46,147 nt of DNA from Beijerinckiaceae bacterium. Its GTDB lineage: Bacteria > Pseudomonadota > Alphaproteobacteria > Rhizobiales > Beijerinckiaceae. Under the pieces are notes generated by a model that saw only the letters and a program-made list of their open reading frames with translations, ran no database searches and was not told where the DNA came from. Location: NCBI GenBank assembly GCA_947478405.1, contig CANJVX010000026.1, positions 1 to 46,147 of the forward strand, written 5' to 3'. Position numbers and translations under genes: made by a program. Positions 13,528 to 44,465 of this stretch are shown here, piece by piece; position 1 is the first letter of the stretch; each line of letters opens with the position of its first letter.

Positions 13528-13543
13528 TGGCACAAAGATTGCT
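13528..13543 (+). promoter_or_regulatory. Sigma-54 promoter of the flgB-flgL operon
   Basis: TGGCACAAAGATTGCT is a complete match to TGGCAC-N5-TTGCW. The expected transcription start is near 13555, so an in-frame GTG at 13553 cannot be the flgB start; ATG 13583 fits. Confidence 0.87.
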
Positions 13544-13582
13544 GAGTAAAGGGTGAACCAATCTTGGGACCCGACACGTCAG

Positions 13583-13969
13583 ATGAACACACTCGACAAA
13601 TATCTGGCTCCGCAAGCCAACGCCCTCCAGCTTCGCCAGAAGCGGATGGAAGTGTTGGGTGCGAATATCGCCAATGCCGCAACGCCTAACTACAAGGCGC
13701 GCGACATCGATTTCTCGACCGCATACGCAACGGCCATGTCCGGCGAGGGCGCGCTGGCAACGACGTCGGGCACCCATATTCAGACCAGCACAGGCTCTTC
13801 GCCCGAGATGATGTTCCGCACACCAATCTCTGCTTCGCTCGATGGCAACACGGTCGAACTGCATGTCGAACAATTGCAGTTTGCCGAGAACGCCACGCGC
13901 TACGAGGCCTCTCTCCAGTTCCTGAACGATCGCCTCCGCGGTCTTCGTTCTGCGCTCAAGGGTGAATGA
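13583..13969 (+). CDS. flgB: Proximal rod protein FlgB
   Basis: FlgB builds the proximal rod. The 128-residue length is normal. The N-terminal motif 'RQKRMEVLGANIANAATPNYKARDIDF' is the flagellar rod-protein signature with FlgB-type 'NYKARDIDF', and the C-terminal helix is present (NATRYEASLQFLNDRLRGLRSALKG). The start at ATG 13583 is chosen because the upstream GTG at 13553 lies at the expected transcription start of the sigma-54 promoter; no strong Shine-Dalgarno precedes 13583. It overlaps flgC by 4 bases. fliE, often next to flgBC, is not present in this window. Confidence 0.93.
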   Translation: MNTLDKYLAPQANALQLRQKRMEVLGANIANAATPNYKARDIDFSTAYATAMSGEGALATTSGTHIQTSTGSSPEMMFRTPISASLDGNTVELHVEQLQFAENATRYEASLQFLNDRLRGLRSALKGE

Positions 13970-15105: not shown

Positions 15106-15165
15106 GCGCTCGTAAGAGCAACGACCAAACCCCGATAGTCACGATCAAAATAGGCGAAACAGAAG

Positions 15166-19941: not shown

Positions 19942-19964
19942 TATTGACTAAGGGGACGTAGTCA

Positions 19965-20711: not shown

Positions 20712-20739
20712 GTCGTGACTGAGATCTAGGAGCACACAG

Positions 20740-21525: not shown

Positions 21526-21536
21526 AGGCTCTGGTC

Positions 21537-22217
21537 ATGAAGCCCGCACTTGCCATCACACTCGCTATGACGCTCGCGCTCGGCGCATGTTCGTCCTTCC
21601 GCGAGGCAAAGATCTCCGAACAGTTCCAGATGAACTACGACGAGGTTGTTCCCGTGCGAGTTGCCTCGCCCGACGGCGCGATCTATTCGCGCTCTCAGGC
21701 TGGATTTTTCCTTGGCGATCGGCGCGCACAGCGCGTCGGTGATGTTCTGACCGTTAATCTCGTTGAAACGATGCAAGCCAGCAAGTCGAATGACGCAGCC
21801 ATTGATACCAAAGGGTCGACAGCGATCGCACCGCCCACAGGCTTTTTTGGGACAGGCCTGAACATTCCAGGAGTGCGCTCTGGCGCTCTCGATATGACAT
21901 CGGAAAGCAAGTTTGCCGGCAATGGAGCAGCAAACCAGAGTAACTCGATTTCTGGCAAGGTCACCGTTGTCGTCACACGCGTGTATGAGAATGGCAATCT
22001 CTGGGTCCAGGGCCAGAAAATGCTTACCCTCAATCAGGGTGAAGAATATGTACGTGTCGAAGGGCTAGTCCGTCCAGAAGACATTGGCCCTGGAAACACT
22101 GTCGATTCCAGCCGCGTTGGTCAGGCCAAGATTAGCTACACCGGTGCCGGTGCAGTTCATGACGCGACGAAGCAAGGCTGGTTCGGCCGCTTCTTCTCCC
22201 TTGTTTCACCGCTGTAA
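21537..22217 (+). CDS. flgH: L-ring lipoprotein FlgH
   Basis: FlgH makes the outer-membrane L ring. The 226-residue protein has a signal peptide with lipobox LALGAC (Cys18). Conserved blocks include 'RRAQRVGDVLTVNLVE', 'NSISGKVTVVVTRVYENGNLWVQGQKMLTLNQGEEYVRVEGLVRP' and 'SRVGQAKISYTGAGAV', all typical of FlgH. It follows flgG by 11 bases and precedes flgI by 13. Its partner ring protein FlgI and chaperone FlgA are in this window; the FlgP/FlgT accessory ring proteins at 3030-4568 would surround the L/P rings. Confidence 0.96.
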   Translation: MKPALAITLAMTLALGACSSFREAKISEQFQMNYDEVVPVRVASPDGAIYSRSQAGFFLGDRRAQRVGDVLTVNLVETMQASKSNDAAIDTKGSTAIAPPTGFFGTGLNIPGVRSGALDMTSESKFAGNGAANQSNSISGKVTVVVTRVYENGNLWVQGQKMLTLNQGEEYVRVEGLVRPEDIGPGNTVDSSRVGQAKISYTGAGAVHDATKQGWFGRFFSLVSPL

Positions 22218-22230
22218 GGAGATAGCCGGA

Positions 22231-23409
22231 ATGACCCGCATCACCCTCCGCATAATCCTTGCAGCACTGTTAATGACGGTCGGCGCGCATGAAGTTTTAG
22301 CGCAAGCACAAACAATGTCTGCGGCTGCTGGCAATTCTGGGCCTGTTGCCACAGACCGTGTAAAAGACGTAGCCACAATTGGCGGCGTACGTTCCAACCA
22401 GCTCGTTGGTTATGGGATTGTTGTTGGTCTGAATGGCACCGGCGATGGTAACGTGGCAGCGACATCTCAAACTGTTCAGAGCCTGATGCAGCGCTTTGGT
22501 CTGACAGTCGATGCAAATGCCGTCAACGCGAAAAATACCGCCGCGGTGATGGTGACAGCGGAACTACCCGCCTTCGCCAAGCCTGGTCAGAAGATCGACG
22601 TGACAGTGGCCGCTCTATCGAAAGCGACCAGCCTTCGTGGCGGCTCACTCTTGATCACCCAACTCATTGGCTCGGACAATGAAACCTATGCTGTGGCGCA
22701 GGGCAACCTCGCCGTTGGCGGCCTCGGCATCACCGGCAATGACGGCTCAAAAGTCTCGGTCAATGTGCCAACCGTCGGCCGCATCCCCAGCGGCGCATCA
22801 GTCGAGCGAATGGTGAATAATCCCTTCGAGACGGCCGCGGCCCTGATGATTAATCTGAATACGTCAGATTTTACCAATTCAATGCGTCTGGCCGATGCGA
22901 TAAACAAGACAATTGGTTCGGGCACCGCCCAGGCCCTCGATGGAACCACAGTCAAGGTTATAGCACCGCGCGATCCGGACAAGCGCGTCGCATTCATGGC
23001 GGCCATCGAAGAGATCAAAATTGGTCCCTCTCAGCCACCCGCCCGCGTGATCGTCAATTCCCGTACGGGAACAATTGTCATCAGCGAAGGTGTGCGTGTG
23101 ACGCCGGCTGCTGTCTCGCATGGTAGCCTCACTGTACGCATCAAAGAAAACCAGAATGTAACACCGGGCGCGCCGACCGTCGTCAATCAGAACCAAGTTG
23201 TTCAAGGTGGCGCCCCTGTACAGACACAGAATAGTCAGATTACGGTCGATGCACCGCCTGCCCGAACCTTCCTCTTTGCACCTGACGTGCAGCTCTCGAG
23301 CATCGTCGATGCGATCAATGCGGTTGGCGCCTCGCCCTCCGATATTGTCGCAATTCTCGAAGCTCTGAAACAAGCTGGCGCGTTGCATGCTGAACTCGTG
23401 GTGATCTAA
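22231..23409 (+). CDS. flgI: P-ring protein FlgI
   Basis: FlgI forms the periplasmic P ring around the rod. The product is 392 residues from ATG 22231, which is preceded by AAGGAG; a longer in-frame ORF from 22084 lies inside flgH and is not used. There is a cleavable signal peptide (to about residue 25, ending VLAQA). Family blocks: 'RVKDVATIGGVRSNQLVGYGIVVGLNGTGDG', 'SLRGGSLLITQL', 'LNTSDFTNSMRLADAIN' and the C-terminal 'LKQAGALHAELVVI'. All are typical. flgJ follows after 3 bases. Confidence 0.96.
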   Translation: MTRITLRIILAALLMTVGAHEVLAQAQTMSAAAGNSGPVATDRVKDVATIGGVRSNQLVGYGIVVGLNGTGDGNVAATSQTVQSLMQRFGLTVDANAVNAKNTAAVMVTAELPAFAKPGQKIDVTVAALSKATSLRGGSLLITQLIGSDNETYAVAQGNLAVGGLGITGNDGSKVSVNVPTVGRIPSGASVERMVNNPFETAAALMINLNTSDFTNSMRLADAINKTIGSGTAQALDGTTVKVIAPRDPDKRVAFMAAIEEIKIGPSQPPARVIVNSRTGTIVISEGVRVTPAAVSHGSLTVRIKENQNVTPGAPTVVNQNQVVQGGAPVQTQNSQITVDAPPARTFLFAPDVQLSSIVDAINAVGASPSDIVAILEALKQAGALHAELVVI

Positions 23410-23412
23410 GCC

Positions 23413-23754
23413 ATGGAGGGAATTGCACCCAGAGCAAGCGGCGGCCTAAGCTCGCTTTCAATCGACCAAAGCCGGCAATACGGCAAGAAGCCAACCTTGC
23501 TCCAAGCGGGCAAGGCCTTCGAAGGCCTCTTCATGAACACCATGATGAAGTCGATGCGCGACGCGCAGATTGAAGGCGGCTTGCTGGACAACGAACACGA
23601 AAAACCGTTCCGCGCCATGCTGGATCAGGCCTATTCGGATCTGGCCGTCAAAAATATGCGCCTCGGCCTGGCCGAAAATATCGAGCGCCAATTTACGCCG
23701 CAGATTGGCAAGAAAAATGCAGAAGTTCCCCCGATGGCGAAGGGGAAAGACTAA
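23413..23754 (+). CDS. flgJ: Rod-binding protein FlgJ (N-terminal domain only)
   Basis: FlgJ caps the growing rod. This 113-residue version has only the rod-cap domain: 'KAFEGLFMNTMMKSMRDAQ', a gap and 'AMLDQAYSDLAVKNMRLGLAE'. The C-terminal muramidase domain of enteric FlgJ is absent, as is usual in alphaproteobacteria. The peptidoglycan-cutting activity is probably supplied by the separate transglycosylase gene at 30124-31137. It starts three bases after flgI and ends three bases before flgK. Confidence 0.93.
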   Translation: MEGIAPRASGGLSSLSIDQSRQYGKKPTLLQAGKAFEGLFMNTMMKSMRDAQIEGGLLDNEHEKPFRAMLDQAYSDLAVKNMRLGLAENIERQFTPQIGKKNAEVPPMAKGKD

Positions 23755-23757
23755 ACT

Positions 23758-26700
23758 ATGCCCGATATCCTTAGCATTGGCTCTTCTGGCCTGACGGCCT
23801 ATCGCAAGCTCCTGGAAACAGTGGGCAGCAATATCGTCAATGCCAATACAGAGGGGTATGTGCGTCGCGACATCTCGCTTCAGGCGACAGGCGAGAGCAC
23901 CATGCTGCCCACAGCGCGGCCTACAACCAGTGGATCGGGCGTTGTAGTGGATTCAGTGCGTCGCGGGACAGACTCGTTTTTGCAAGCGCAGACCTATGTT
24001 TCAAATGCCTATGCCAATCAGGCGTCGACTTTGGCCGACTCCCTGACACAATTGGAAAAAGGAGTTTTTACAAATACCGCTAATGTCTCTACGGAAGTTC
24101 AGAATTTTTATTCGTCTTTCTCGCAACTTGCCAGTGCGCCAACATCTACGTCTGCGCGCCTGACGCTTCTGGACGCAGGCGAGCGCGTCGCCACAACCTT
24201 CCGCGCGACTGCCAATCAGATCAAAACAAATCTTCAATCGGTTGAATCTGCGATTGATGCAGCTCTCGCACAAGTTAATGTTTTATCCACACAATTGGCG
24301 CGTCTGAATGGCGATATCTCACGCAGCGCTTCGGGTGGACAAAAACCCAACGACCTGCTTGATCAGCGCGACAAGCTTTTGCAAGAACTCTCGAGCATGA
24401 CCGGTTTCACAACGGTTGAGGCTCCTAACGGCTCTGTCGATATTTATCTAGGTGATACAGCATCCGGTCAAAAACTAATCGGCTCAGAAGGCGCTCACCA
24501 ACTCGGAGCTGTCAAAACAAACGGACGCATCGACATCGCCTTCGATCCGGCAACGCGCCCCAGTATCACATCGCAAATCAAAAGTGGGATGATTGCCGGC
24601 CTGATGGACTTCCGTCGCGAAGCGACCATGCTGCTGCAAAATGTCGATCGCTTGGCTGTTGGCTTCGTCAATTCAGTGAACATCCAGCATATGCAGGGCG
24701 TCGATCAGGATGGAAATGCCGGTAAAGAATTGTTCTCAGCAGAAAGCCTCACGGCAACGGCTGGTACGGGCAATACCGGTCTGACCAAAATGAATATGAC
24801 CGTAACAGCGGCAGCGCAGTTAACTGGCGCAACCTATTCCGCGCGTTACGATAGCACGAAACTCCAGTGGACAGTCACATCCAGCGACGGCCGATCCACA
24901 TCTGGCGCCAGTTCAATTACGATGGATGGTGTCAACTTCAGTTTTGAAGGCGAGTTCTCAGCAAAAGATATCTTCACCGCAGAACCCTTGAAGAATGCTT
25001 CCGGGGGGATGCGTTTTCTAAGGACAACGCCCTCAGAAATCGCTGCGGCACTGCCCCTTTATGTTGATCAGGGCACCGGTAATCAGGGATCTGGGACCCT
25101 CTCGGTCACGAACCGTGATGCCAAAACGCCTCCCGCGCCGCTGCCGAATGCGAAAGATATTTTTGCCGGCACGAGCCTTTCGGGTGTTGATTTTCTACGC
25201 AATGGAGCGGCTTTTCTGGTTCAAGCCGGCACTGGTCCCTCCGAAATAACATCACTCGGGACACTGCCGGCACTCCGGTTTCCAGAATCTGCAGGCGATC
25301 TGATCGCACTCAACAATAGCAGTGCCGCGGGAATTGGCGGGCTTACACTGACATTTAACATTGATGCAACGAGCAATGGGCCAATCCGGACCCTTGACTT
25401 GTTTCCGCGTGGAAACAGTGTCGAGGATTTAGCCCGTGCAATTAACGAAGCCGCCGCTGCAAATGGCGCCGCAGACGAACTTTTTGCAACTGTGTCTGGT
25501 GGCGCGCTGACGATCAACGCCGTCGGCACTCATACGATTTCCAATGGCTCCCTCGATGGTTTTACCAAAGCGGGCGTCGCCAAGAGCATCAAACCTGCCA
25601 CTGAGCCAAGCACCAGTGCAGCGGCGATGCGCCTTTTCACGCGGGACGGCCGCCAATTAACCGGTCCCGCGATGAGCCAGTCTGAGGCTGCGGTATTCCT
25701 AACCACCGCGAATGGTTTCCTGTCCGATGCGTTCTACCGTCCCCCGACCGCAAATGCAGGATACCGCGGCCTCAACCTTTCTACATCGAATGACCTGCTG
25801 TCACTGACACTAGCCTCGAAACGCAATGCAACCATCGACGTTGTACGCAGCCTTTATAATCAGGTGCCCGCGGCGCAGGGACAAGGGACTTCACCCGGCG
25901 CCGTCTATGCGATGGACGTGATCGGCCTTCCGCCCATCCGCCTTGCCGGGGATGATATTGGCGCCCGTAACGCCGCCGGCATTGCCAACGCTCTCACCGA
26001 GCAGATGAACGCGTCTGCTACGCTTCGGACATGGCTTGGCACTGCGGTTACTATTTTACCAGACAGCCCGCCCCTGCATTTCACCGTCACCGTCGATGGC
26101 AAGGATGAGCAGGTTACATTTAAACCTGGTAAGGTTCCCGCTGGTGCGGGTGCCGATAAAACTTATCTAAACTCCGGCATGTTCGAAGTCGGTGCTGGAT
26201 CAAAATTAAGATTTGGCCTCGTTCCAGACGCAGCTGGCACAGTACGCGTCATGATTTCAGCGCCACAACAGCTGCGCACCAGCGCCCCGACAATTTCAAT
26301 TAGCGCAGATTCTGCAACAGCGACTAAACTCGGTCTTTCGGAAACGCCTGCCACCACAAGGCTCACCGCCATGGGTGATCTAGCCGCAAGCCTGATGAAA
26401 GGCAATATCGTAGAATTGAATGTTAAAGTGAATGGCCAATCAACACTCGTACATATCGATGGACCTCAAGGCCGCGATGGCGCTGTTTCTTGGTCAATGG
26501 TCGATGGACAACTTCAATTGGCAAGTTCGTCGACACTGGCAATATTGACCGGGACAAATGCTGGAAAGTTAGGGTTCTCCGGATCCGAAACTCCTGGTAA
26601 GACGCTCAAAGCCGCTCATAAACTGGTCGATGAATGGCTCAAGGCAGATCCAATCACGCTCTCCGTCTCCGCACCATGGGGAGAAACTACACTTACAATT

Positions 26701-28635
26701 GACAGTGCCGAAAACTCAGCTGATGATCCCTCTTGGAGCGTCGTTGATGGACGCATGGTCCTATCCAGTGCATCAAGCCAGCTAACTATCCTGTCAACAA
26801 GCGTCGCTGATCGAGCAAAAGCTTCGAGGCTTGGTTTTTTGGGTTCAGATCTGGACTTGACACGATCAAGTCAGACAACCGCCGCAAATGAATTGCTCCC
26901 GGCTCTTCTCCAAGCACGCACGCCCACCCTGCACCTCAGTGGGAAAACCATCGGCGACAAGACAATCACGATCAATTCCGTTGCAGGTCAATCTGGTGGA
27001 ATTTCCTGGGCGATCGATGGCGGGAAACTTGTTTTAACAAGCAGCGATGATACTTTAACTATCCAAACGCAGGACACCGACAAAGCTCTCGCCGATATGC
27101 TTGGGTTCACGGGCAACGAAATTGCACAAAACGGGAAATTGTCGGCTACAACCGATCTTACGACCGCGATGCTTTCAACGCAGCCGGTAACAGTCAAACT
27201 TGCAGACAATAGCCGATTGGCTATCAATGCGGCTAGCGGAGTAGCAAGCAATGGTAGCTGGTCGATTGTTAACGGTCGGCTGCGTATCTCAAGCCCATAT
27301 CTTGCTGCCACCGTGGCTGCCGGGAATGAAGCCTCGCAACAAACTGCTCGCTCGCTTGGTTTCCTTGGCCCGGATCAAGACACATCCAGTGACGGAACAG
27401 TTATAGCTGCAGCCACATTGGACAGCGCACTGATCACAAGCCGCTTGCCGCAAATCAAAATAAATATTGCTAAAGTTGATCAGACACTCACGCTATCAAC
27501 ACCAACGGGCACGGCCTTTGGGGTGTCTTGGTCAGTCGTTGATGGTCGCATAGAGCTGAAGAGCGATGATGCCTCACTGCGCATCGTCACCAAAACAATC
27601 AGCGATCAGCAAATGGCGCGCGCGCTAGGTTTCGGTGGATCAGAGTCATTTAACGGATCTGGTGCAATTGTTGCGTCAAACCCGCTCGCAGAATCTCTCC
27701 TTTCAGCATTGCCCGCAGAGTTCAATCTGGCGGACGGCTCCTCAATCTCAATTGGCGCGCCGTCCGGTCGCACCGGCGCAACAAGCTGGAGTGTTGTCGA
27801 TGGACACCTCAAAATTACAGGTCCCTCCTTGCAACCGGGGCTGCAGCGGGTTCTCGCTGACGATCTGGCGAATACGAGATCACTCGGATTTTCGGGTGTT
27901 GGTCAAGACGATCTTGCGATCGGAACACAGATCTGCCTAACGTCAACTGCGGGTGATGAAAATAATGACCTCGTCGATACGACCGCGACACGGTCGGTTG
28001 CGGGAAACCAGATACATATAGGCTCGATAGTCCCCGAGGATATGATCGTCCAGCTCGATAATGGCGATATGAATGGTTTACGCAGAATTTCTGCTATCCT
28101 TGGAGAACGGGATACTACGAAAATTCCTTTCCCCAATATTACTGTAAAAGTCATATCATCAAGTGAACTTGAAATCATTGATCGGAAAAGCGGTGTCAGC
28201 CTTGCTCGACGCGCCTGGCTACCGGAGAAAGATGTCAATTATCTTGGAACCACTTTCCGTATCGCAGGAAATGCTCTTGCCGGAGATGTCTTCGACATCA
28301 GTAATGATTCCATGCGCGCGGGTGACAGCCGAAATGCTCAAGCGATCTCGCGCATGGCAACAGAATCTATCTTTGGTGAAAATCAAGGATCCTTCCAAGA
28401 CGTCTATACGTCGGTCGCATCGACCGTCGGATCTACTGTCGCCTCTGCCGAAATGACTTCAAAATCATCTCAGCAGTCGGCGTCCGACTTGAAATCCGCA
28501 TATGAGGCTAAAACCGGCGTCAACCTTGATACCGAGGCTGCCGATCTTATTCGATACCAGCAAGCCTATCAGGCTGCAGCGCAGGTTGTCTCCACAGCCC
28601 GCGACATGTTCCAAACTATTCTGAAGAGCTTCTAA
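23758..28635 (+). CDS. flgK: Giant hook-filament junction protein FlgK (1625 aa) with six repeats
   Basis: FlgK (HAP1) joins hook and filament. The N-terminus 'ILSIGSSGLTAYRKLLETVGSNIVNANTEGYVRRDISL' and C-terminus 'DTEAADLIRYQQAYQAAAQVVSTARDMFQTIL' are diagnostic. Typical FlgK is 450-650 residues; this is 1625. The excess contains six tandem ~81-91-residue units from residue 911 to about 1388. Each starts 'SW(S/A)xVDGxLxLxS' and contains 'LGFxG', resembling hook-IN/Ig-like modules. The unbroken frame shows the length is real. It sits between flgJ and flgL in the flgB-flgL operon. Together with giant FlgE it implies an unusually bulky hook surface. Confidence 0.93.
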   Translation: MPDILSIGSSGLTAYRKLLETVGSNIVNANTEGYVRRDISLQATGESTMLPTARPTTSGSGVVVDSVRRGTDSFLQAQTYVSNAYANQASTLADSLTQLEKGVFTNTANVSTEVQNFYSSFSQLASAPTSTSARLTLLDAGERVATTFRATANQIKTNLQSVESAIDAALAQVNVLSTQLARLNGDISRSASGGQKPNDLLDQRDKLLQELSSMTGFTTVEAPNGSVDIYLGDTASGQKLIGSEGAHQLGAVKTNGRIDIAFDPATRPSITSQIKSGMIAGLMDFRREATMLLQNVDRLAVGFVNSVNIQHMQGVDQDGNAGKELFSAESLTATAGTGNTGLTKMNMTVTAAAQLTGATYSARYDSTKLQWTVTSSDGRSTSGASSITMDGVNFSFEGEFSAKDIFTAEPLKNASGGMRFLRTTPSEIAAALPLYVDQGTGNQGSGTLSVTNRDAKTPPAPLPNAKDIFAGTSLSGVDFLRNGAAFLVQAGTGPSEITSLGTLPALRFPESAGDLIALNNSSAAGIGGLTLTFNIDATSNGPIRTLDLFPRGNSVEDLARAINEAAAANGAADELFATVSGGALTINAVGTHTISNGSLDGFTKAGVAKSIKPATEPSTSAAAMRLFTRDGRQLTGPAMSQSEAAVFLTTANGFLSDAFYRPPTANAGYRGLNLSTSNDLLSLTLASKRNATIDVVRSLYNQVPAAQGQGTSPGAVYAMDVIGLPPIRLAGDDIGARNAAGIANALTEQMNASATLRTWLGTAVTILPDSPPLHFTVTVDGKDEQVTFKPGKVPAGAGADKTYLNSGMFEVGAGSKLRFGLVPDAAGTVRVMISAPQQLRTSAPTISISADSATATKLGLSETPATTRLTAMGDLAASLMKGNIVELNVKVNGQSTLVHIDGPQGRDGAVSWSMVDGQLQLASSSTLAILTGTNAGKLGFSGSETPGKTLKAAHKLVDEWLKADPITLSVSAPWGETTLTIDSAENSADDPSWSVVDGRMVLSSASSQLTILSTSVADRAKASRLGFLGSDLDLTRSSQTTAANELLPALLQARTPTLHLSGKTIGDKTITINSVAGQSGGISWAIDGGKLVLTSSDDTLTIQTQDTDKALADMLGFTGNEIAQNGKLSATTDLTTAMLSTQPVTVKLADNSRLAINAASGVASNGSWSIVNGRLRISSPYLAATVAAGNEASQQTARSLGFLGPDQDTSSDGTVIAAATLDSALITSRLPQIKINIAKVDQTLTLSTPTGTAFGVSWSVVDGRIELKSDDASLRIVTKTISDQQMARALGFGGSESFNGSGAIVASNPLAESLLSALPAEFNLADGSSISIGAPSGRTGATSWSVVDGHLKITGPSLQPGLQRVLADDLANTRSLGFSGVGQDDLAIGTQICLTSTAGDENNDLVDTTATRSVAGNQIHIGSIVPEDMIVQLDNGDMNGLRRISAILGERDTTKIPFPNITVKVISSSELEIIDRKSGVSLARRAWLPEKDVNYLGTTFRIAGNALAGDVFDISNDSMRAGDSRNAQAISRMATESIFGENQGSFQDVYTSVASTVGSTVASAEMTSKSSQQSASDLKSAYEAKTGVNLDTEAADLIRYQQAYQAAAQVVSTARDMFQTILKSF
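26488..27920 (+). repeat. Six tandem ~85-residue repeats inside flgK
   Basis: Units begin near 26488, 26731, 27004, 27256, 27526 and 27784, each encoding S-W-[S/A]-x-V-[D/N]-G and, about 40 residues later, L-G-F-x-G. Unit spacing is 81, 91, 84, 90 and 86 codons. They are diverged at DNA level, and the sixth is partial. Confidence 0.82.
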
Positions 28636-28644
28636 GGGCGAGTC

Positions 28645-29547
28645 ATGCAAATCAGCACGAGCACCTTCTTCCGCCGTCAGGGTGAAAATATAACTGACCT
28701 GAAAACTCAAACGGCCGTGCTCGAAGAGCAAATTGCCACCGGGAAAAAGGTTACCAAACCCTCTGACAATCCCGTGACTTTCTCGGCGATCTCCGTCTTG
28801 AAAGCACGCGAGGCGCGGATTCAGCAATATCAAAACACAGCGCAATCTCTGACACAGCGTTTATCAACCGAAGATAGCGTCCTGAGCCAGGCGACTAATA
28901 TCATGACACGCATTCAGGAATTAACGATCCAAGCAGGTAATGACACCTATTCACCAGCTGATCGGCGTGCGGTGGGGGCAGAAGTTCAAAATCTTCAAGA
29001 TGAATTGGTCTCCCTAGCCAATACCAAGACCGCAGACGGAAATTATCTGTTTGCTGGCTATCTGGCAGATCAGGAACCGTTCAAGACGAAGGGCGGACAG
29101 ACCAATTATCATGGCGACACTGGACGTCTCTCTTTAACGATCGGCGAAAATACAGAAATGGAGGTAAGTTCCTCGGGGCAGGAAGTCTTCATGGCTGTTA
29201 AGACAGGAGCGGGAACCAGCAAATCCGTCTTCGAGATTGTCAAAACAATTACCGATGCTCTCAATGCAGGAAAAAGCCCTACCGGTGGCCTGGTTGATTT
29301 GCAAAATGCCGCAGATCACATCAACGGCTACCATGCCATTACAGGTGCTCGTCAGTCGCGCATCAACGCAACTGAAGAATCTCTCGCAGCGGATATACTG
29401 GCAACAAAGGCACGCCTCTCGGCGCTGGAAGATACGGACATCGAAAAAGCGATTACCGAAATGAAACAGAAAATGACAAGCCTCGATGCGGCTCAGTCGT
29501 CCTTTGTCCGAATTTCCAGTTTGTCCCTATTTAACTATTTGAAATAA
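28645..29547 (+). CDS. flgL: Hook-filament junction protein FlgL
   Basis: FlgL (HAP3) follows FlgK at the junction and touches the first flagellin. The 300-residue protein begins 'MQISTSTFFRRQGENITDLKTQTAVLEEQIATGKKVTKPSDNPV', the FlgL pattern, and shows the flagellin-like 'AGNDTYSPADRRAVGAEVQNLQDELVSLANTKTADGNYLFAGY'. C-terminus 'TEMKQKMTSLDAAQSSFVRISSLSLFNYLK' is normal. It is the last gene of the flgB operon. Its end overlaps the end of the opposite-strand gene at 29531 by 17 bases, so there is no spacer for a terminator between them. Confidence 0.95.
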   Translation: MQISTSTFFRRQGENITDLKTQTAVLEEQIATGKKVTKPSDNPVTFSAISVLKAREARIQQYQNTAQSLTQRLSTEDSVLSQATNIMTRIQELTIQAGNDTYSPADRRAVGAEVQNLQDELVSLANTKTADGNYLFAGYLADQEPFKTKGGQTNYHGDTGRLSLTIGENTEMEVSSSGQEVFMAVKTGAGTSKSVFEIVKTITDALNAGKSPTGGLVDLQNAADHINGYHAITGARQSRINATEESLAADILATKARLSALEDTDIEKAITEMKQKMTSLDAAQSSFVRISSLSLFNYLK

Positions 29548-33569: not shown

Positions 33570-34412
33570 TTACTTGAGCAAGGTCAGAACCTGCTGCGGC
33601 TGCTGGTTCGCCTGAGCCAGCATCGCAGTAGCTGCCTGCTGGATGATCTGGTGTTTGGCCAACTCGGCGGTCGCTTCCGAATAATCGGTGTCAGTCACGC
33701 GGCTTCGTGATTCAGAAGCGTGCACTGAAATATTTGTCAGGTTGTCGACAGTATACTGGAAGCGGTTGCTGAGCGCACCCATCGATGCACGCTGCGTATC
33801 GACATTCTGAATGGCCGTATCAACAGCGTCAAGCGCCGTCTGAGCGCCCGACAGCGAGGTCAGTACGTTAGAAGCAATAGCATTGGTGATGCTTCCACTT
33901 GTTGCGAAACTTGAGAATGTGAACGTCACAGTGTTAGCACTTGAATACGTCGCGCCCACCTGGAAAGATACCAAGCCCGTTGACGACGCGGCTGAACCAT
34001 CCAGAAGGTTCATGCTGTTAAAAGAGGTCGACGAAGCGACACGATTAATTTCCGTACGCAGGTTCGAAAACTCGTTGTTAAGAGCAGTTCGTTCGTCTGT
34101 TCCATTGGTATCGTTCGCAGCCTGGACGGCCAATTCACGCATGCGCTGAAGCATGTTGGTGATTTCATTGGTTGCGCCTTCCGCAGTCTGCAACATAGAT
34201 ATCGCATCATTGGCATTGCGGACAGCCTGATTCAGACCTTTAATCTGTGCCGTCAATTTGTCAGAAATTGCAAGGCCTGCTGCATCGTCAGCGGCCGAGT
34301 TGATGCGCCTGCCGGTAGACAATTGCTGCATTGCTTTAGAAAGCCCGCGAGAATTTGCGGCAATGGCAGCCTGAGATGTCAGCGACGCCACGTTGGTATT
34401 AATAACAGTCAT
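33570..34412 (-). CDS. fliC: Flagellin, downstream tandem copy
   Basis: Filament subunit of 280 residues, made only of the D0/D1 ends with a short variable centre. N-terminus 'MTVINTNVASLTSQAAIAANSRGLSKAMQQLSTGRRINSAADDAAGLAISDKL' and C-terminus 'ELAKHQIIQQAATAMLAQANQQPQQVLTLLK' are those of compact alphaproteobacterial flagellins. It is collinear with the gene just upstream (34567-35409), differing mainly in residues about 145-215. It has its own sigma-28-type promoter (34488-34514) and terminator (33517-33545), so it can be expressed separately. The centre is Ser/Thr-rich ('SAASSTGLVSFQVGATYSSANTV'), a possible modification target. Confidence 0.95.
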   Translation of the reverse strand: MTVINTNVASLTSQAAIAANSRGLSKAMQQLSTGRRINSAADDAAGLAISDKLTAQIKGLNQAVRNANDAISMLQTAEGATNEITNMLQRMRELAVQAANDTNGTDERTALNNEFSNLRTEINRVASSTSFNSMNLLDGSAASSTGLVSFQVGATYSSANTVTFTFSSFATSGSITNAIASNVLTSLSGAQTALDAVDTAIQNVDTQRASMGALSNRFQYTVDNLTNISVHASESRSRVTDTDYSEATAELAKHQIIQQAATAMLAQANQQPQQVLTLLK

Positions 34413-34566: not shown

Positions 34567-35409
34567 TTACTTGAGCAAGGTGAGGACCTGCTGCGGCTGC
34601 TGGTTTGCTTGCGCCAGCATGGCTGTCGCTGCCTGCTGAATAATTTGGTGTTTTGCGAGCTCAGCGGTCGATTCAGAATAGTCAGCATCCGTTATTCGGC
34701 TCCGGGATTCCGATGCATGTACCGAAATATTCGTCAGGTTGTCGACCGTATACTGGAAGCGATTGATGACACCACCCATTGCTGCACGCTGCGTATCGAC
34801 AGATTGGATGGTGGTATCAATATTTTGAATGGCCGACTGAGCGCCCGAAAGCGTCGTTAGTGAATCAGAGGCGATGGCGTTGGTGAGGCTGCCTGTCGTT
34901 GCAAAGCTCGAGAATGAAAACGACACAGAATTGCTGCTCGAATAGGTGGCGCCAACCTGGAAGGTGACGGTGCCGGTCGACGATCCTGCCGTCCCATCAA
35001 GCAGCATCATGCCATTGAATGAGGTTGAGGACGCGATGCGATTAATTTCACTCCGCAGCGCGACAAATTCGTTGTTGAGAGCAGTGCGTTCGTCCGTGCC
35101 ATTTGTGTCGTTGGCAGACTGGATAGCAAGCTCACGCATGCGCTGCAGCATGTTGGTGATTTCGTTGGTCGCACCTTCTGCTGTCTGCAGCATCGAGATC
35201 GCGTCGTTGGCATTACGAACCGCCTGGTTCAGGCCGCGGATCTGAGCTGTCAACTTGTCCGAGATGGCAAGGCCGGCAGCATCGTCAGAAGCCGAATTGA
35301 TGCGCTTGCCCGTGGACAGCTGCTGCATGGCCTTGGCAAGTCCGCGAGCATTTGTAGCAATAGCGGCCTGCGAATTAAGCGATGCAACGTTGGTGTTGAT
35401 GACAGTCAT
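34567..35409 (-). CDS. fliC: Flagellin, upstream tandem copy
   Basis: 280-residue flagellin with N-terminus 'MTVINTNVASLNSQAAIATNARGLAKAMQQLSTGKRINSASDDAAGLAISDKL' and the same C-terminus as its neighbour. It is a tandem paralogue of 33570-34412: identical length, conserved terminal domains, and a diverged short centre ('GTAGSSTGTVTFQVGATYSSSNSV'). It has a strong Shine-Dalgarno (AAGGAG) nine bases upstream of ATG 35409, a sigma-28-type promoter at 35482-35508 and a strong terminator at 34514-34543. By promoter quality it may be the major flagellin. No D2/D3 domains are present. Confidence 0.95.
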   Translation of the reverse strand: MTVINTNVASLNSQAAIATNARGLAKAMQQLSTGKRINSASDDAAGLAISDKLTAQIRGLNQAVRNANDAISMLQTAEGATNEITNMLQRMRELAIQSANDTNGTDERTALNNEFVALRSEINRIASSTSFNGMMLLDGTAGSSTGTVTFQVGATYSSSNSVSFSFSSFATTGSLTNAIASDSLTTLSGAQSAIQNIDTTIQSVDTQRAAMGGVINRFQYTVDNLTNISVHASESRSRITDADYSESTAELAKHQIIQQAATAMLAQANQQPQQVLTLLK

Positions 35410-37807: not shown

Positions 37808-38209
37808 TCAGCGGCGTTCCGTATCTGTGGTTGAATGCGTGCACAAAGGCATCTGGTGCACGAAAGCAAACCAGCGGGCAACATCGCTCACAATGACGCC
37901 ACGTTTGTTCTCGATCAGGCCGAGCGCAATGAGGCGCTTGATTTTTCGCCGCGCCGTTTCTTTTGGGATTTTCATGAAATCGGCGACCGACGATACATTC
38001 GTCGAGGTGATATAGCCGTTTGAGCCAACCTGCTGGATCCGCTCAGTATTGAGATAGCCCACCCCGAGATAGAGCAGCATTTCTTCAACATCGAGATTGA
38101 GCGACGCGCGCATCCCATCGATGGACGTAAAGAAGCTACGCAACGCGTTGAGTTGTGCAGCCTCACTGCGACCATCTTTTGAGGTTGGGCTTAAACTTGA
38201 GGTTTGCAC
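37808..38209 (-). CDS. Winged-helix (HTH) regulator-like protein
   Basis: A 133-residue protein. Residues about 70-115 form a winged-helix HTH: 'TSTNVSSVADFMKIPKETARRKIKRLIALGLIENKRGVIVS' has the recognition-helix then wing pattern of small Crp/MarR-type DNA-binding domains. The N-terminal ~65 residues are helical and may be a dimerisation or ligand region. The start is GTG 38209 and is not strongly supported (AAGG about ten bases upstream). It lies between the unknown gene and the TPR-LicD gene; a regulatory role at this locus is an inference. Confidence 0.72.
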   Translation of the reverse strand: MQTSSLSPTSKDGRSEAAQLNALRSFFTSIDGMRASLNLDVEEMLLYLGVGYLNTERIQQVGSNGYITSTNVSSVADFMKIPKETARRKIKRLIALGLIENKRGVIVSDVARWFAFVHQMPLCTHSTTDTERR

Positions 38210-38326: not shown

Positions 38327-39910
38327 TTAATTTGCTCCCGGAACGCACACCCGCAAACGATCAAGCAACGCAAGTTGCATCGCCCCCTCGCCGCCCTGTG
38401 TCTCATCCAACTTGGCAACAAGCTTCCGCAATTTCCCGCCAAAACCATATTGCAGAGAGCGCACAACCCACAATCTCATCGCGAGCTGATGAACTAACGT
38501 TCCCTTTTCTATCAGCGAGGGGGATTCAATATGTGAGAGATAATCCTTATCCGGTGTTTTCCAATCGCCGAAGTTTTCAGTCAAATTAAGTTCGAAATCA
38601 CGCGGAACATGGACACGCGTGTTCATGAAGTCGGCTTCCACGAGATCAAAGGGCGTAAAAGCAAACGTCTGCCGATAACCGAACTGGATATCGACACCTG
38701 TGACCCATTTGTCAGCTCTTGGATGGTAAACAAAAATATCGATCCAAACGCCAGTTGGGCCATGAATAACGGGCTGGTGAATTGTGTCCTCACCCTTCAA
38801 GTAATTTGGCAAAACCCGGAAGTCGGATTGCTTCACCAAATATCGAAGCAAAACCACCAAGCGGTCGACACCAACAATGCCAAGGTCAACATCTTTATCG
38901 TGCGATAAGACCCCGCCCGCCCGCGCAAAGCCAAGAAGCGTACCTGAAACAAGGAAAAGCCGCTCGCCACATTCCCTAGCGAAGGACATCAACGCAGCAA
39001 GAGCCGTCTTGGCGAGGTCAGATGTGTAGGTCCCCTCACCTGGCACTGGAAAGAAAATATCGGACGCGCCAACAACCTTGCTCCCGTCCAACCCCAGATA
39101 TAGGAGCTCCGAGATCAGGTGATCCATAGCATTGATCGATTCCAAATGGAGATCATTACGGCATAACGTCTGCGCCAAAATAGCCAAAGTGCGCGGAATC
39201 GGTTGAGCTGCATAGGCAAGTTTGAAAGATTGGAGGGCCTGCGCGTAATATTGTGTCTTCACGCAAGCATCGCCTAACATCAAATGAACCATATTTATGA
39301 GACTTTTGTGATCAAGAAATTTTAATTTCAGAACAAAAACACCATAGAGCGACCTCAAGCATGCAAAGTCTGCATCGCTTACGAGATGGACTTGCCTCGC
39401 CACCGCCGATTTCACGATTTTTGCAAATACTGCGTGGGTTAATCTAGAATTCGGAATACTGCGCAAAAATCTTTCTGCCGCTTCCACGCCGCCCAGATCG
39501 AAGCAAATCTCATAAGCGTCGCGTAATTGGTCTTCCGACAATTTAAACATTAGACGTTGGCTTTTATCATTTTCGATTAATTTGAAAACCAAATCAGAAA
39601 ACGCCGAATTTTCTCGCTCGGACAGAATTCCACACTTGGCATCCCTGTTCAGAAACCCAAGATAGACGTCACGCCAGAACACAGCGCGTGGCAGATTATA
39701 TCCATACTCTACGGCAAAGCTGCTCAGAAAGACGACGACGGCCGTCCGGCGCATGGCACGTGCCGTCCATAAGGTTTCATCCGAATAGACATGATCAAAC
39801 CCGACGCTTTTAACAAAAGAGCCGAGCGCATCTATGTCTTCGGCAGTCAAGCAACGATCAATCTCATGAACGATCTCTACGCCAGAGGGAACTTTAACCT
39901 GCATCTGCAT
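38327..39910 (-). CDS. TPR-LicD phosphotransferase, first paralogue
   Basis: A 527-residue two-part protein. The first ~280 residues are helical and repeat-like ('ALQSFKLAYAAQPIPRTLAILAQTLCRND' is TPR-like). The C-terminal part (about 295-470) is a LicD/fukutin-type nucleotidyltransferase-fold domain: 'LFLVSGTLLGFARAGGVLSHDKDVDLGIVG' has the GTLLG motif and the DxDxD-type metal site (D338, D340, D342). LicD enzymes move phosphocholine, and fukutin/FKRP move ribitol phosphate from CDP-ribitol. Start ATG 39910 has GGGAG eight bases upstream (a TTG at 39913 is less likely). A candidate sigma-54 promoter is at 40069-40084. It is similar along its whole length to 42840-44465. Confidence 0.85.
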   Translation of the reverse strand: MQMQVKVPSGVEIVHEIDRCLTAEDIDALGSFVKSVGFDHVYSDETLWTARAMRRTAVVVFLSSFAVEYGYNLPRAVFWRDVYLGFLNRDAKCGILSERENSAFSDLVFKLIENDKSQRLMFKLSEDQLRDAYEICFDLGGVEAAERFLRSIPNSRLTHAVFAKIVKSAVARQVHLVSDADFACLRSLYGVFVLKLKFLDHKSLINMVHLMLGDACVKTQYYAQALQSFKLAYAAQPIPRTLAILAQTLCRNDLHLESINAMDHLISELLYLGLDGSKVVGASDIFFPVPGEGTYTSDLAKTALAALMSFARECGERLFLVSGTLLGFARAGGVLSHDKDVDLGIVGVDRLVVLLRYLVKQSDFRVLPNYLKGEDTIHQPVIHGPTGVWIDIFVYHPRADKWVTGVDIQFGYRQTFAFTPFDLVEADFMNTRVHVPRDFELNLTENFGDWKTPDKDYLSHIESPSLIEKGTLVHQLAMRLWVVRSLQYGFGGKLRKLVAKLDETQGGEGAMQLALLDRLRVCVPGAN

Positions 39911-40166
39911 CAATATGGCTCCCGCTCCTGACAGCCAAAGCCGCAGGCAAACCCCTTCAAGGCGACCGAGCGCATTGCAACAGACAGGTCATCTCGTCAC
40001 GTCAAACGTTCCAAAAACCATGATCCGTACAAAAACGCGCCACGATCCAAATCATCAAGGTCGATTTCAGCACATTTCATGCCAGATTACTCTGCAAATA
40101 CAATCCGCTGCATGCCTTCGCTGAGGCAAGCTTGCAGAGCCGGGGTAGCTATGGCAGGGAACGCGG
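39911..40166. other. Divergent spacer between TPR-LicD gene and rimO
   Basis: 256 bases. It holds the minus-strand sigma-54-type site at 40069-40084, followed by a leader of about 148 bases before the TPR-LicD start. No rimO promoter could be named with confidence. No small gene is supported. Confidence 0.5.
40069..40084 (-). promoter_or_regulatory. Candidate sigma-54 promoter of first TPR-LicD gene
   Basis: Minus strand TGGCATGAAATGTGCT: GG-N10-GC with one mismatch in the -12 half (GTGC for TTGC). The long leader lowers confidence. Confidence 0.6.
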
Positions 40167-41501
40167 ATGAGCGATCAGATTGAAAAACCCGACCAACCCC
40201 GCATTTCCTTCGTGTCCCTCGGTTGCCCGAAGGCACTCGTTGACAGCGAACGCATCATCACGCGCCTGCGCGCCGAGGGTTATGAGCTCAGTCGCTCCCA
40301 CACGGGTGCCGATGCCGTTATCGTTAACACATGCGGCTTTCTCGACAGCGCCAAGGCGGAATCACTCGAAGCCATCGGGGCTGCGCTGAAAGAAAACGGT
40401 AAGGTCATTGTCACCGGTTGTATGGGCGCAGAGCCTGAACAGATCCGCGCGCGCTTCCCCAATGTCCTCGCCATCACTGGCCCGCAAGCCTATGAGAGCG
40501 TGCTTAGCGCGGTGCATCAGGCCGTGCCGCCCGCACATGACCCATTTTTCGATCTTGTCCCGCCGCAAGGTGTGAAACTAACGCCGCGCCATTATGCCTA
40601 TCTGAAAATCTCAGAGGGCTGCAACAACCGCTGCACCTTCTGTATCATCCCCAAATTGCGGGGTGATCTGGTGTCACGCCCTGTTGGTGAGGTATTGCGC
40701 GAAGCCGAGAAGCTGGTCCATGCGGGCGTCAAAGAATTACTCGTCATCTCGCAGGACACATCCGCCTATGGGCTAGACCTGAAATATGCCGAAAGCTCCT
40801 TTCAGGATCGCACGGTTCGCACCCGCTTCTATGATCTGGCAAAGGAATTGGGCGCGCTAGGTGCATGGGTGCGCCTGCATTACGTCTATCCCTACCCCCA
40901 TGTGGACGAAGTGCTAGAGTTAATGGCGCAAGGCATCGTCCTACCCTACCTCGACATACCCTTCCAACATGCATCGCCAAATGTCCTGAAAGCGATGAAG
41001 CGCCCTGGCAATCAGGAAAAAACGCTCGATCGTATTCGTAAGTGGCGAGAAATATGTCCTGATCTGGCCATCCGCTCGACATTCATCGTCGGTTTCCCCG
41101 GCGAAACCGATGAAGATTTCGACATGCTGCTTGATTGGCTAGGAGAAGCCAAACTCGATCGCGTGGGGGCCTTTAAATATGAGCCAGTGACCGGCGCTAC
41201 AGCCAATGATCTGGGCCTACCACAAGTGCCAGATGAAGTGAAAGCGATCCGCTATCGCCGCTTCATGGAAAAACAGCAGACGATCAGCTCTAAAATTCTT
41301 TCAGCCAAGGTCGGCAAACGGCTACAGGTCATCATTGATGAACCTGGCCCAACCGTCTCGAAGGGACGCGCCAAATCTGATGCGCCCGACATTGACGGTG
41401 CGGTCTTTATTGCCTCACGCCGCCCACTGCGCGCGGGCGACATCGTCTCTGTGAAGATCGAGCGTGCCGACGCCTACGATCTCCATGGCATTGCGGTCTG
41501 A
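40167..41501 (+). CDS. rimO: Ribosomal protein S12 methylthiotransferase RimO
   Basis: RimO is a radical-SAM enzyme that methylthiolates an aspartate of ribosomal protein S12. The 444-residue protein has the N-terminal [4Fe-4S]-binding domain ('[16 protein letters not shown]'; Cys20, Cys56 and Cys85), the radical-SAM motif CNNRCTFC (Cys152, 156, 159), and a C-terminal TRAM domain ('[19 protein letters not shown]'-type ending). Length and motifs are normal. It is a housekeeping gene placed between the two TPR-LicD/CDP-alditol units on the opposite strand; it converges on the Bcs1-like gene, its stop lying only 2 bases from that gene's stop. No functional link to them is implied. Confidence 0.96.
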
Positions 41502-41503
41502 TT

Positions 41504-42847
41504 TCACACCCGGACAACCATGCCTGAATAGCCAGCATTCAGTACTTTTGTAGCTTTCAGACCAACTTCATAGGGGCTCAGGAGGCTGTCCTGATCTTCG
41601 TTATAGAAGTTGGTACGGCGCATCGCCGTGTCGGTTCGACCCGGCACGATGCAATTCACGCGAATGCCGTCTTCCATCCATTCCTCAGCTAGCCCTTGCG
41701 TCAGATTGACGACGGCAGCTTTGCAAGCCGAATAAGGTACATAGCCACTGCGGCCACGCGTATAGGAAGAAGAGGAAAAATTCAAAAGCATGCCTTTTGA
41801 ACGCGCGAGGCTATGATGACTGGCGCGGGCGACATTGAAAGTACCACTCAAATTGATGCTGATCTGTTCGGCAATGTCCTGCGCATTCTGGTTGGCAACA
41901 TCCCGCATGACCAGCGAACCGACTGTGTTGATGACGAAGTCAATCGCACCATGCTTCGACTGAACGTCGGCAATGACTTTTTCAACATCTGCATAATTGC
42001 GGATATCGCAACCCGATGAACGCGAAGCCACTTCCGTCTGGCAGCCGGCATCCCACAATATCTGTGTCATCGCCTTGCCGATGCCGGAATTGCCACCAAA
42101 AATGACGGCGGTCTTGCCCTTCACGTCTATGCCACGAATGTTGGGATCGACATTAGCCGTCTTCATCCGCAACATTTCGTCAGCAATCACGAGGTCGAGA
42201 CCCTCAGTAATTTTCATATTTTCTGAAGCGCCTTGAACAATGCGCACACGAGCAAATGGGTCGGCTGCAAGAAACAAACCGCAATCGTCGGTGAACTCGC
42301 TGAGACGCTCAAGCCCCACCTTGCGATAGGCCGAAATCAACTTTCCAAAGCGGAAGGCTTGCGGCGTCTGACCCCGCATAAGCCGGGCCCGTTCCGGTAT
42401 CGATTGAATGAATCCGCCATTTTCGACAATAATCGTGTCGGTCGCAGGAATGGCAACATCCACCGCTTCGAACGCATGCAGAGCTTCGACTACATCATGA
42501 ATGATTGTATTCGAAACAAAGGGACGAGCGGCATCGTGAATAATCACATCGCGCGGACAAAAATTTTCTAGATGGGTCAGGCCCGATAATGTCGAACCCT
42601 GGCGCGTCGAACCGCCAATAATCACATCAGCACAAGGAAACTTTGAAAGGATCGCACGCGACATTTCAAGCTGATCGACCGGCACAGTTACGACGATGCG
42701 AACATCGGGAAGGCATTCGGTCAAGGCTGAAAAGCTATGCTCGAGAATAGTCTTGCCACCAATGCGAACGAATTGCTTGGGAATTTCCCACCCAAGTCTT
42801 TGGCCCTGTCCACCGGCAAGAAGAATAATTGCGAGATCGTCACGCAT
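41504..42847 (-). CDS. Bifunctional IspD-type cytidylyltransferase / SDR reductase (Bcs1/Acs1-like)
   Basis: A 447-residue fusion. Residues 1-228 are an IspD-family cytidylyltransferase: 'LLAGGQGQRLGWEIPKQF' (nucleotide-binding loop) and 'DAARPFV' (around 105-111). Residues 240-447 are a short-chain dehydrogenase: GGNSGIG (251-257), NTVG (307-310) and YSACK (Tyr372, Lys376). This order is that of Haemophilus Bcs1/Acs1, which reduce ribulose 5-phosphate to ribitol 5-phosphate and make CDP-ribitol. I infer CDP-ribitol (or a similar CDP-alditol) as product. It overlaps the stop of the upstream TPR-LicD gene by 8 bases, so donor-making and transfer enzymes are co-translated. A cytosolic enzyme. 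Confidence 0.88.
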   Translation of the reverse strand: MRDDLAIILLAGGQGQRLGWEIPKQFVRIGGKTILEHSFSALTECLPDVRIVVTVPVDQLEMSRAILSKFPCADVIIGGSTRQGSTLSGLTHLENFCPRDVIIHDAARPFVSNTIIHDVVEALHAFEAVDVAIPATDTIIVENGGFIQSIPERARLMRGQTPQAFRFGKLISAYRKVGLERLSEFTDDCGLFLAADPFARVRIVQGASENMKITEGLDLVIADEMLRMKTANVDPNIRGIDVKGKTAVIFGGNSGIGKAMTQILWDAGCQTEVASRSSGCDIRNYADVEKVIADVQSKHGAIDFVINTVGSLVMRDVANQNAQDIAEQISINLSGTFNVARASHHSLARSKGMLLNFSSSSYTRGRSGYVPYSACKAAVVNLTQGLAEEWMEDGIRVNCIVPGRTDTAMRRTNFYNEDQDSLLSPYEVGLKATKVLNAGYSGMVVRV

Positions 42848-44465
42848 GTTCGAAGACCTTCTTTAACATATTCGATTTGGCTTCCTGCACATCACACCAC
42901 TGCAAAATACGTTCACATAGAGCGCGGCTAGGTGCGAGGGGATTATCCTCATAAGCGGAAGCAAATTGAACAACACGTCGCACTTTGGCGATCTTCTTAT
43001 CCAAGAGACCGCTCGAAAGCTTGTCCCATGTGAGAAGCATATGAACGGATCCACCCTTGTCACTGACAGACGGCGATTCAAGATGTGACTGATAATCAGG
43101 ATCTGGAACACGCCAATGAGCCCCAAAATTTTCAGCCATATTGGTATCAATATCATCTGGGACCCAAATCTTAGTCCCGCAGAATTCGGTTTCAGTCAGC
43201 GTGAACGGCGAGAATTCGAAGGTTCCTGTAAAGCCCCATTCGAAATTCACCCCGGTAACGACCTTGGCGCCGACCTCGTGATAGAGAAAAATATCGATCG
43301 CCATTTGATTGCCAGTATGAAAAACCGGAATCGTATAGGCCTTGTGTCCCTTTAGTGATTCAAATTTGAGCTTGAATTTTCCGCTGCGTTGTAGGGCGTC
43401 GAAAATATTGAATTGATCGTCCCAACCAAAAATACCGACATCGACGTCCTTATCATGAGAAAGGAATCCACCGTTGCGTACGTAACCAAGAAGCGTTCCC
43501 GACACGAGGAACGGTTTCACGCCTAACGGCTCTAGAATGGCACACAGATCATGCAGTGCTTCACGGGCATGCGATACTGGAAACGAAGTTTCTTTGTAAG
43601 CCTGAGGTGATGCGGATGATACCTCTGCAGCATTACCCGTTTCAGACAATTCGCGTTCAAGAAGGCCGGAAACAAACCCATTAAACCACTGACAGGCGAC
43701 ATCTAGTTTTCCGGCCCGCGTGGAGATGCGCGCAGCTGCAAAATATGCGCTGGTCGAGACACCCGTCTCCGTCAAACGGTTGCAATAGGCCAACGCTTCA
43801 TCATATTTGCCAGCCAGTTCATAGGCCTCGGCAATGTGGTAGATAATCTTATTCAACAGCTCAGGTGTTGAATTTGGTCGAAAGGCTTTTTCCAGCGCCT
43901 TCATGGTCTGTACGAAGGACATCAAATCGACGAAGCTTGGCAAATACTTCTGACGTGCAGCCAGAGACTGGATCACAAGAATTACTTCAAGCGCACTTGG
44001 TTTCTTCTCAAGAAACGAGACGACGAGATCTCGTGCAAAGTCTGTTCGATTGAAGTCGACTGCCAGTTCAATCGCAAATAGCCATTCCGGATCGAGACGC
44101 GACTTGCGCAGTGGTTTCAGCATGTCCTTGTCATCTTGCAGGATTGCGCGGACCAGCTGGGACACAGGGCTACGCTGGCCCAATTCCTCGATCTCAGGCG
44201 CCATCATCTTTGACGCGAGCGAACGATAGGCTGCCAAAACGAGTGCGGCCTCGCGCGGGACGAAGTCATTCTCGAAACGCAACGTGGCCAAGAGGATCAC
44301 CACCGGCACCATGCGACGCATGCGCGCGAGCTTGAACAACTCGACATCACGCAGCCCTTCAAGGCCAATATGATTGATCGCCTGGATCAACATCGCCTGA
44401 TGACCAGAACTCAGACTCCGGGCGACCACCTCGAGATTCTGTTCAACTTTGCCCAGCTCGGCCAT
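42840..44465 (-). CDS. TPR-LicD phosphotransferase, second paralogue
   Basis: A 541-residue protein built like 38327-39910: a helical repeat-like N-terminal ~290 residues ('IIYHIAEAYELAGKYDEALAYCNRLTET' is a clear TPR unit) and a C-terminal LicD/fukutin-type domain with 'PFLVSGTLLGYVRNGGFLSHDKDVDVGIFG' (metal site around residues 338-342) and 'NMAENFGAHWRVPDPDYQSHLESPS'. I start at ATG 44465, where GGGAG lies six bases upstream and alignment with the paralogue begins; alternatives at 44468 and 44504 are less supported. It overlaps the Bcs1-like gene by 8 bases. A near-consensus sigma-54 promoter is at 44552-44567. It is predicted to use the CDP-alditol made by its neighbour. Confidence 0.86.
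   Translation of the reverse strand: MAELGKVEQNLEVVARSLSSGHQAMLIQAINHIGLEGLRDVELFKLARMRRMVPVVILLATLRFENDFVPREAALVLAAYRSLASKMMAPEIEELGQRSPVSQLVRAILQDDKDMLKPLRKSRLDPEWLFAIELAVDFNRTDFARDLVVSFLEKKPSALEVILVIQSLAARQKYLPSFVDLMSFVQTMKALEKAFRPNSTPELLNKIIYHIAEAYELAGKYDEALAYCNRLTETGVSTSAYFAAARISTRAGKLDVACQWFNGFVSGLLERELSETGNAAEVSSASPQAYKETSFPVSHAREALHDLCAILEPLGVKPFLVSGTLLGYVRNGGFLSHDKDVDVGIFGWDDQFNIFDALQRSGKFKLKFESLKGHKAYTIPVFHTGNQMAIDIFLYHEVGAKVVTGVNFEWGFTGTFEFSPFTLTETEFCGTKIWVPDDIDTNMAENFGAHWRVPDPDYQSHLESPSVSDKGGSVHMLLTWDKLSSGLLDKKIAKVRRVVQFASAYEDNPLAPSRALCERILQWCDVQEAKSNMLKKVFEHA

Follow-up and report, generated by a model that had tools for sequence, protein, structure and literature searches.

In a 46,147-nucleotide stretch of contig CANJVX010000026.1 from a Beijerinckiaceae bacterium (the window), a gene for a predicted alditol-phosphate transferase, LicD_A (42840-44465, minus strand), is directly followed by a gene for a fusion of IspD and short-chain dehydrogenase/reductase (SDR) domains, IspD-SDR (41504-42847, minus strand). 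LicD_A has an N-terminal helical/tetratricopeptide repeat (TPR) domain of ~290 aa and a C-terminal LicD domain of the nucleotidyltransferase fold. The 447-aa fusion (PF01128 + PF00106) is predicted to be a bifunctional ribulose-5-phosphate reductase and CDP-ribitol (CDP-alditol) synthase. ATG codons of LicD_A at 44468 and 44465 lie downstream of a purine-rich stretch. Beyond the housekeeping gene rimO (40167-41501, plus strand; TIGR01125, 548.8 bits, above cut-off), which lies between the two LicD genes and outside the module, is a full-length, diverged paralogue of LicD_A that keeps the LicD motifs, LicD_B (38327-39913, minus strand; possible ATG starts at 39910 or 39904). These four open reading frames (ORFs) were found where the first-pass annotation of this DNA had placed them. 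Its 8-base overlap of IspD-SDR and LicD_A, ATGCGTGA, and its full-length paralogue across rimO were also recovered.

The TPR-LicD and IspD-SDR genes form a conserved cassette. In 12 of 12 cassettes, including that of the window, the TPR-LicD gene is directly followed by the IspD-SDR gene on the same strand, with the two overlapping in 8/12 and 21-28 bases apart in 4/12; the 8-base overlap is seen again in L026, L027 and L128. As the genes are adjacent in every case and the pair recurs in 11 other genomes, chance pairing was rejected. Identity to the window proteins is 54-62% for the fusions and 30-38% for the TPR-LicD proteins, where the start of the L026 fusion was chosen to align with that of the window rather than to give the longer ORF. 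Within the window's family, 5 of 199 genomes gave full-length relatives of LicD_A, and within its phylum 3 of 398 did so (the window's genome counted in both); family f193 (loci L127, L128 and L138-L140) gave them in 5 of 399 genomes, including the phylum match G924. The sole full-length match in a class search of 385 genomes was the window's own. Some genomes belong to more than one of these search sets, and shorter matches confined to the LicD domain were commoner. A scan of named genomes for the fusion, in which 80 loci of 581 relatives were retrieved and 6 of the 80 annotated (L026-L031), added at least two cassettes, one from Rhodoferax and one from a Comamonadaceae metagenome-assembled genome; L030 and L031 have separate ORFs rather than a fusion. 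The cassettes are partly non-independent, with L019/L020 and L138/L139 being close pairs. In both the LicD tree and the IspD-SDR tree, the window forms a clade with its family members (support 96/95 and 100/99), but the order among the remaining cassettes differs between the two. No relative of the fusion was found in the viral contigs scanned. At the non-flagellar locus L129 (9070-11080), a 458-aa LicD protein adjoins a lone 217-aa IspD-like gene, which is a separate IspD + LicD pairing.

For each of the 11 cassettes besides that of the window, the distance to flagellar genes is 0-2.6 kb, and the neighbours vary. The cassette stands behind FlgK-FlgL in L019, L020 and L022, and likewise in L021 but with a flagellin gene between; it is beside flagellin genes in L026, L027, L128 and L140; and it adjoins FliA, with FlhA nearby, in L127, L138 and L139. 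Among control LicD loci of other kinds (L024, L025 and L129-L134), 0 of 8 are near flagellar genes, although the probes for this tally were window proteins, which diverged flagellar genes in the control loci may escape. Three short stretches (L008, L009 and L010) and L023 (genome G521), in which the TPR-LicD gene is cut by the contig end, were excluded from the control count. The cassettes were retrieved with LicD or fusion queries, none with flagellar queries. Some are close relatives, and thus the independent flagellar placements number fewer than 11. The fusion is also found outside flagellar loci, as a more distant, single-ORF form in L028 and L029, where both TPR-LicD and flagellar genes are absent from the vicinity. 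Thus, the flagellar association belongs to the TPR-LicD/IspD-SDR pair, not to the fusion alone.

The fusion carries IspD (PF01128, 6.7e-45, residues 6-227) and adh_short (1.7e-33, to residue 414) domains in one ORF, both far above cut-off. The motif GGxxGIG and residues S359, Y372 and K376 are invariant in 12/12 cassettes, in keeping with the intact-motif, 447-aa IspD-SDR order of the first-pass annotation. Of the solved relatives of the IspD half, the two that match best bear the name ribitol-5-phosphate cytidylyltransferase.

LicD_A scores above cut-off with the LicD model PF04991 (23.7 against 22.6 bits), and LicD_B below it (19.3 bits). A nucleotidyltransferase fold with metal-binding aspartates and an hG[GS]-like motif is present in LicD_A, in which residues D351, D353, D355 and D404 (numbered from a TTG start at 44504) are invariant in 13/13 homologues. 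Structure prediction and fold search, which the first-pass annotation had proposed, place the LicD_A model nearest to FKRP; the non-appearance of other families in the fold lists does not count as evidence. The TPR assignment of the earlier annotation is better founded on a profile built from six homologues, which hits designed consensus TPR proteins (9.5e-25 at best as the sum over 8 repeats, but only ~0.03-1 for single repeats), and on the N-terminal half of the predicted structure, which is all-helical (residues 8-291), than on the Pfam TPR models, which match LicD_A weakly (best 0.0021, all below cut-off) and do not match LicD_B at E 0.1. LicD_B is 27-30% identical to LicD_A in two comparisons and forms a very long branch of uncertain place in the LicD protein tree.

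The flagellar cluster of the window, which precedes the LicD and fusion genes, was identified with Pfam (FlhA, rod and hook genes, FlgH, FlgI, FlgK, FlgL, FliD and two flagellins), and FlhF, FlhG and FliA were assigned by domain and gene order. The flagellins, flagellin 1 (33570-34412, minus strand) and flagellin 2 (34567-35409, minus strand), have Flagellin_N and Flagellin_C above cut-off and are the probable substrates. The hook protein FlgE (1591 aa, 15166-19941) and the hook-associated FlgK (1625 aa, 23758-28635) are very large, with 21-22% Ser+Thr, and are possible further substrates; no tandem repeats were found in the DNA spanning their genes (15000-29000). A small protein resembling helix-turn-helix proteins (37808-38209) adjoins LicD_B, and a 33% identical relative is found on contig C36 (L123 5609-5977), ~3 kb from another TPR-GT41 gene. 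No match to a flagellar sigma-factor-like pattern was found within the window. Sigma-70-like sites (11, with 5.3 expected) and terminator-like sites (8, with 8.7 expected) were counted, and nothing is drawn from these counts.

Several cassettes are accompanied by sugar and glycosyltransferase genes. In L019, the operon continues after the cassette with rmlC, rmlB, rmlD, rmlA, a TPR-GT41 gene and a GT4 glycosyltransferase gene; L020 shares all six of these and L021 the first five. The same rml and TPR-GT41 set is found in the window's genome on contig C35 (L124 353-6547), where rmlACBD adjoins a TPR-GT41 gene whose product shares 50% identity with the L019 protein across 585 residues, and the genome has two further TPR-GT41 genes. 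In L022, the rml genes are replaced by the gene of a 418-aa protein (12626-13882) directly after IspD-SDR, which matches LicD weakly (20.2 of 22.6 bits). The cassette of L026 is followed by a 1033-aa TPR-GT41 protein, the end of which gives a weak fucosyltransferase-like match, below cut-off. In L027, a Glyphos_transf gene (CDP-glycerol glycerophosphotransferase-like, 11369-12526) is located between cassette and flagellins. In L128, IspD-SDR is directly followed by an 845-aa protein (5369-7906) whose N-terminus is of the HAD-hydrolase type, and this in turn by a 594-aa protein without a Pfam match. Some 4.5 kb down from the L128 cassette are Polysacc_synt_2 and DegT genes, a combination typical for the synthesis of pseudaminic acid.

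The cassette is on balance probably a cytoplasmic flagellin-modifying module that adds ribitol phosphate from CDP-ribitol. This prediction is drawn from sequence and gene order: the genes, motifs, conserved pairing and conserved flagellar setting are direct observations, from which we infer that the alditol is ribitol, that it is added to flagellin, and what part, if any, the much more diverged LicD_B plays. D-ribulose 5-phosphate would be reduced by the SDR half, and the resulting D-ribitol 5-phosphate joined to CTP by the IspD half, yielding CDP-ribitol in the manner of the Haemophilus Acs1/Bcs1 type. With its N-terminal TPR solenoid, LicD_A may then hold unexported flagellin, much like the TPR half of Caulobacter FlmG, while the FKRP-like LicD domain, as its fold and motifs suggest, would transfer ribitol phosphate onto it via bound metal ions. 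The acceptor would most likely be a flagellin sugar attached beforehand by a TPR-GT41 protein using an Rml-made deoxyhexose. LicD_B may be a second transferase for another flagellar protein, for another site, or for the first ribitol phosphate. It is conceivable, although rather doubtful, that the locus is a bacterial equivalent of ISPD-FKTN-FKRP in which both LicD proteins act sequentially at the same flagellin site in the cytoplasm before export to build tandem phosphoribitol, either on a sugar primed by TPR-GT41 or on Ser/Thr itself. The donor-synthesis plus transfer module proposed in the first-pass annotation is well supported by the 12/12 same-strand adjacency, the FKRP-nearest fold and the conserved flagellar tie, which holds across cassettes with differing flagellar neighbours.

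A number of observations weigh against this reading. IspD-SDR and LicD_A are at least 6 kb from the window flagellins, with unrelated genes between, and LicD_B is 2.9 kb from them. The fusion is present in just 4/12 genomes of a related genus (G521, with its truncated TPR-LicD, is one further genome), and is thus an accessory trait. Relatives of the GT41 protein occur without the cassette in G550 (42%) and G410 (34%), and G501 has the cassette with a GT41 elsewhere of only 31%; thus, TPR-GT41 and cassette are not strict partners. The structure model of IspD-SDR is poor (pLDDT 57). FKRP is the sole LicD-family structure in the fold-search lists, so the match to it does not single out ribitol, and the ribitol-contacting and zinc-finger loops are described as conserved in FKRP orthologues only (PMC6965139). 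The IspD half of the window misses the ribitol-5-phosphate cytidylyltransferase model NF001183 (152.1 bits, cut-off 166), and its highest NCBIfam score is with TIGR00453, the ispD model of the methylerythritol phosphate (MEP) pathway, which it also misses (169.4 of 181.3 bits). That of L027 passes the MEP cut-off (189.2) and narrowly misses the ribitol one (163.1 of 166), and that of L026 is under both; in addition, one further solved relative of the window's IspD half is named as a MEP enzyme. The family models thus leave the donor unsettled, and because the NF001183 cut-off is missed, the fusion is filed as Acs1/Bcs1-like rather than as a proven member.

The same flagellin module may use another alditol, with the fusion making CDP-arabinitol, CDP-xylitol, CDP-glycerol or another CDP-alditol for LicD, and this has an appreciable, though minor, chance of being correct. 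Pneumococci have IspD-like + reductase pairs for other alditols, SDR specificity is unreadable from sequence, and the scores of the window's IspD half, under both cut-offs, and of the other cassette members, which differ, leave room for it; however, the naming of the two closest solved cytidylyltransferases favors ribitol, as does the Haemophilus CDP-ribitol enzyme (PMC4873967), which is likewise built as an IspD-SDR fusion. That ribitol phosphate goes instead onto a surface polysaccharide, lipopolysaccharide (LPS) or capsule, with an incidental flagellar neighborhood, is unlikely. Teichoic acids, capsules and LPS are the targets of the bacterial CDP-ribitol/LicD systems described so far (PMC4873967, PMC10434233), L026 and L128 have sugar genes farther along the locus, and unrelated genes part the window cassette from the flagellins. 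However, flagellar loci with varied neighbors house 11/11 other cassettes against 0/8 other LicD loci, and no polysaccharide polymerase or flippase was seen among the part of the flanking ORFs scanned with Pfam.

Transfer of phosphocholine or another non-alditol group by LicD_A and LicD_B, with the IspD-SDR product used elsewhere, appears very unlikely. The well-studied LicD enzymes are phosphocholine transferases, and a cholinephosphotransferase model is the top NCBIfam match of both LicD proteins, although far below cut-off (33.2 and 22.7 of 225 bits). Against this, IspD-SDR adjoins TPR-LicD in 12/12 cassettes, and no choline kinase (PF01633) was matched at 0.001 in the 95% complete assembly, although LicA-type kinases may escape the model. 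The presence in the genome of a further protein using a CDP-alditol was considered and rejected, as no Glyphos_transf match and no third LicD protein were found by searches that can miss diverged proteins, the LicD model having missed LicD_B; this also counts against the phosphocholine explanation. That the IspD half is a spare MEP pathway enzyme is scarcely credible, despite TIGR00453 being its top NCBIfam score (below cut-off in the window, above in L027), since a separate, full IspDF passing its own cut-off is encoded on contig C45 and the linkage to LicD is constant. Among the loci compared, the best matches of this IspDF are from Bradyrhizobium, Methylocystaceae, Pseudolabrys and Microvirga (54-58% identity), by which the organism can be roughly assigned, with probability rather than certainty, to the Hyphomicrobiales.

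The combination of CDP-alditol synthase, TPR-LicD and flagella was not found in the open-licence literature searched. The parts are known individually, but LicD chemistry directed to a bacterial protein would be a novel variation. We know of no ribitol-phosphate modification of a bacterial protein, and tandem phosphoribitol on flagellin, if true, would be the first. Bacterial CDP-ribitol has so far been known for wall and capsule polymers; flagellin modification as proposed here would place ribitol-phosphate-type chemistry on a bacterial protein, would offer a soluble, genetically simple model for LicD transfer to protein, and would carry the FlmG principle, in which flagellin is selected by a TPR domain, over to another kind of transferase.

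In animals, ribitol phosphate has been documented on the protein dystroglycan, and defects in its synthesis there lead to muscle and brain disease (PMC4873967). The human ISPD-FKTN-FKRP system, as described for alpha-dystroglycan (PMC4873967, PMC6965139), shares an IspD-family cytidylyltransferase and two LicD-family transferases with the window locus, and FKRP, the nearest fold to LicD_A, has its metal-binding aspartates kept by motif; here, however, the setting is bacterial, flagellar and presumably cytoplasmic, a TPR domain is in place of the FKRP stem, and in contrast to ISPD an intact-motif SDR is fused to the IspD half. Fused ISPD and LicD domains are also reported from some bacteria (PMC4873967). 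The Haemophilus CDP-ribitol synthase Acs1/Bcs1, likened here by its domains, also unites cytidylyltransferase and reductase in one protein, but serves capsule synthesis, whereas the present gene is coupled to TPR-LicD at flagellar loci. The Lic-1 phosphocholine pathway shares a LicD transferase using a CDP donor (PMC10434233), but the window's genome has no choline kinase match with PF01633; the same survey associates glycoconjugates with LicD and proteins with PptA. The flagellins of Clostridioides difficile type A and Pseudomonas aeruginosa PAO1 are described as bearing a sugar with a phosphodiester-linked group, and their flagellin loci likewise include a cytidylyltransferase-like gene, but what is attached there is N-methyl-threonine phosphate or a methylated amino acid, and LicD does not occur in the main text of that source (PMC4441256). 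In the alphaproteobacterium Caulobacter, the N-terminal TPR half of FlmG is reported to bind flagellins and the C-terminal half to glycosylate them in the cytoplasm (PMC7591256). LicD_A shares with FlmG the ~300-aa N-terminal TPR domain joined to a transferase and the flagellar role, but FlmG is a GT-B glycosyltransferase moving pseudaminic acid (PMC7591256), whereas LicD_A has LicD as its catalytic domain, with a predicted CDP-alditol donor, and lacks a GT-B domain; the likeness is architectural only. It is the build of FlmG, together with the phosphodiester-bearing flagellin sugars of C. difficile and P. aeruginosa, that suggests the TPR-LicD protein as a candidate flagellin binder and adder of alditol phosphate.

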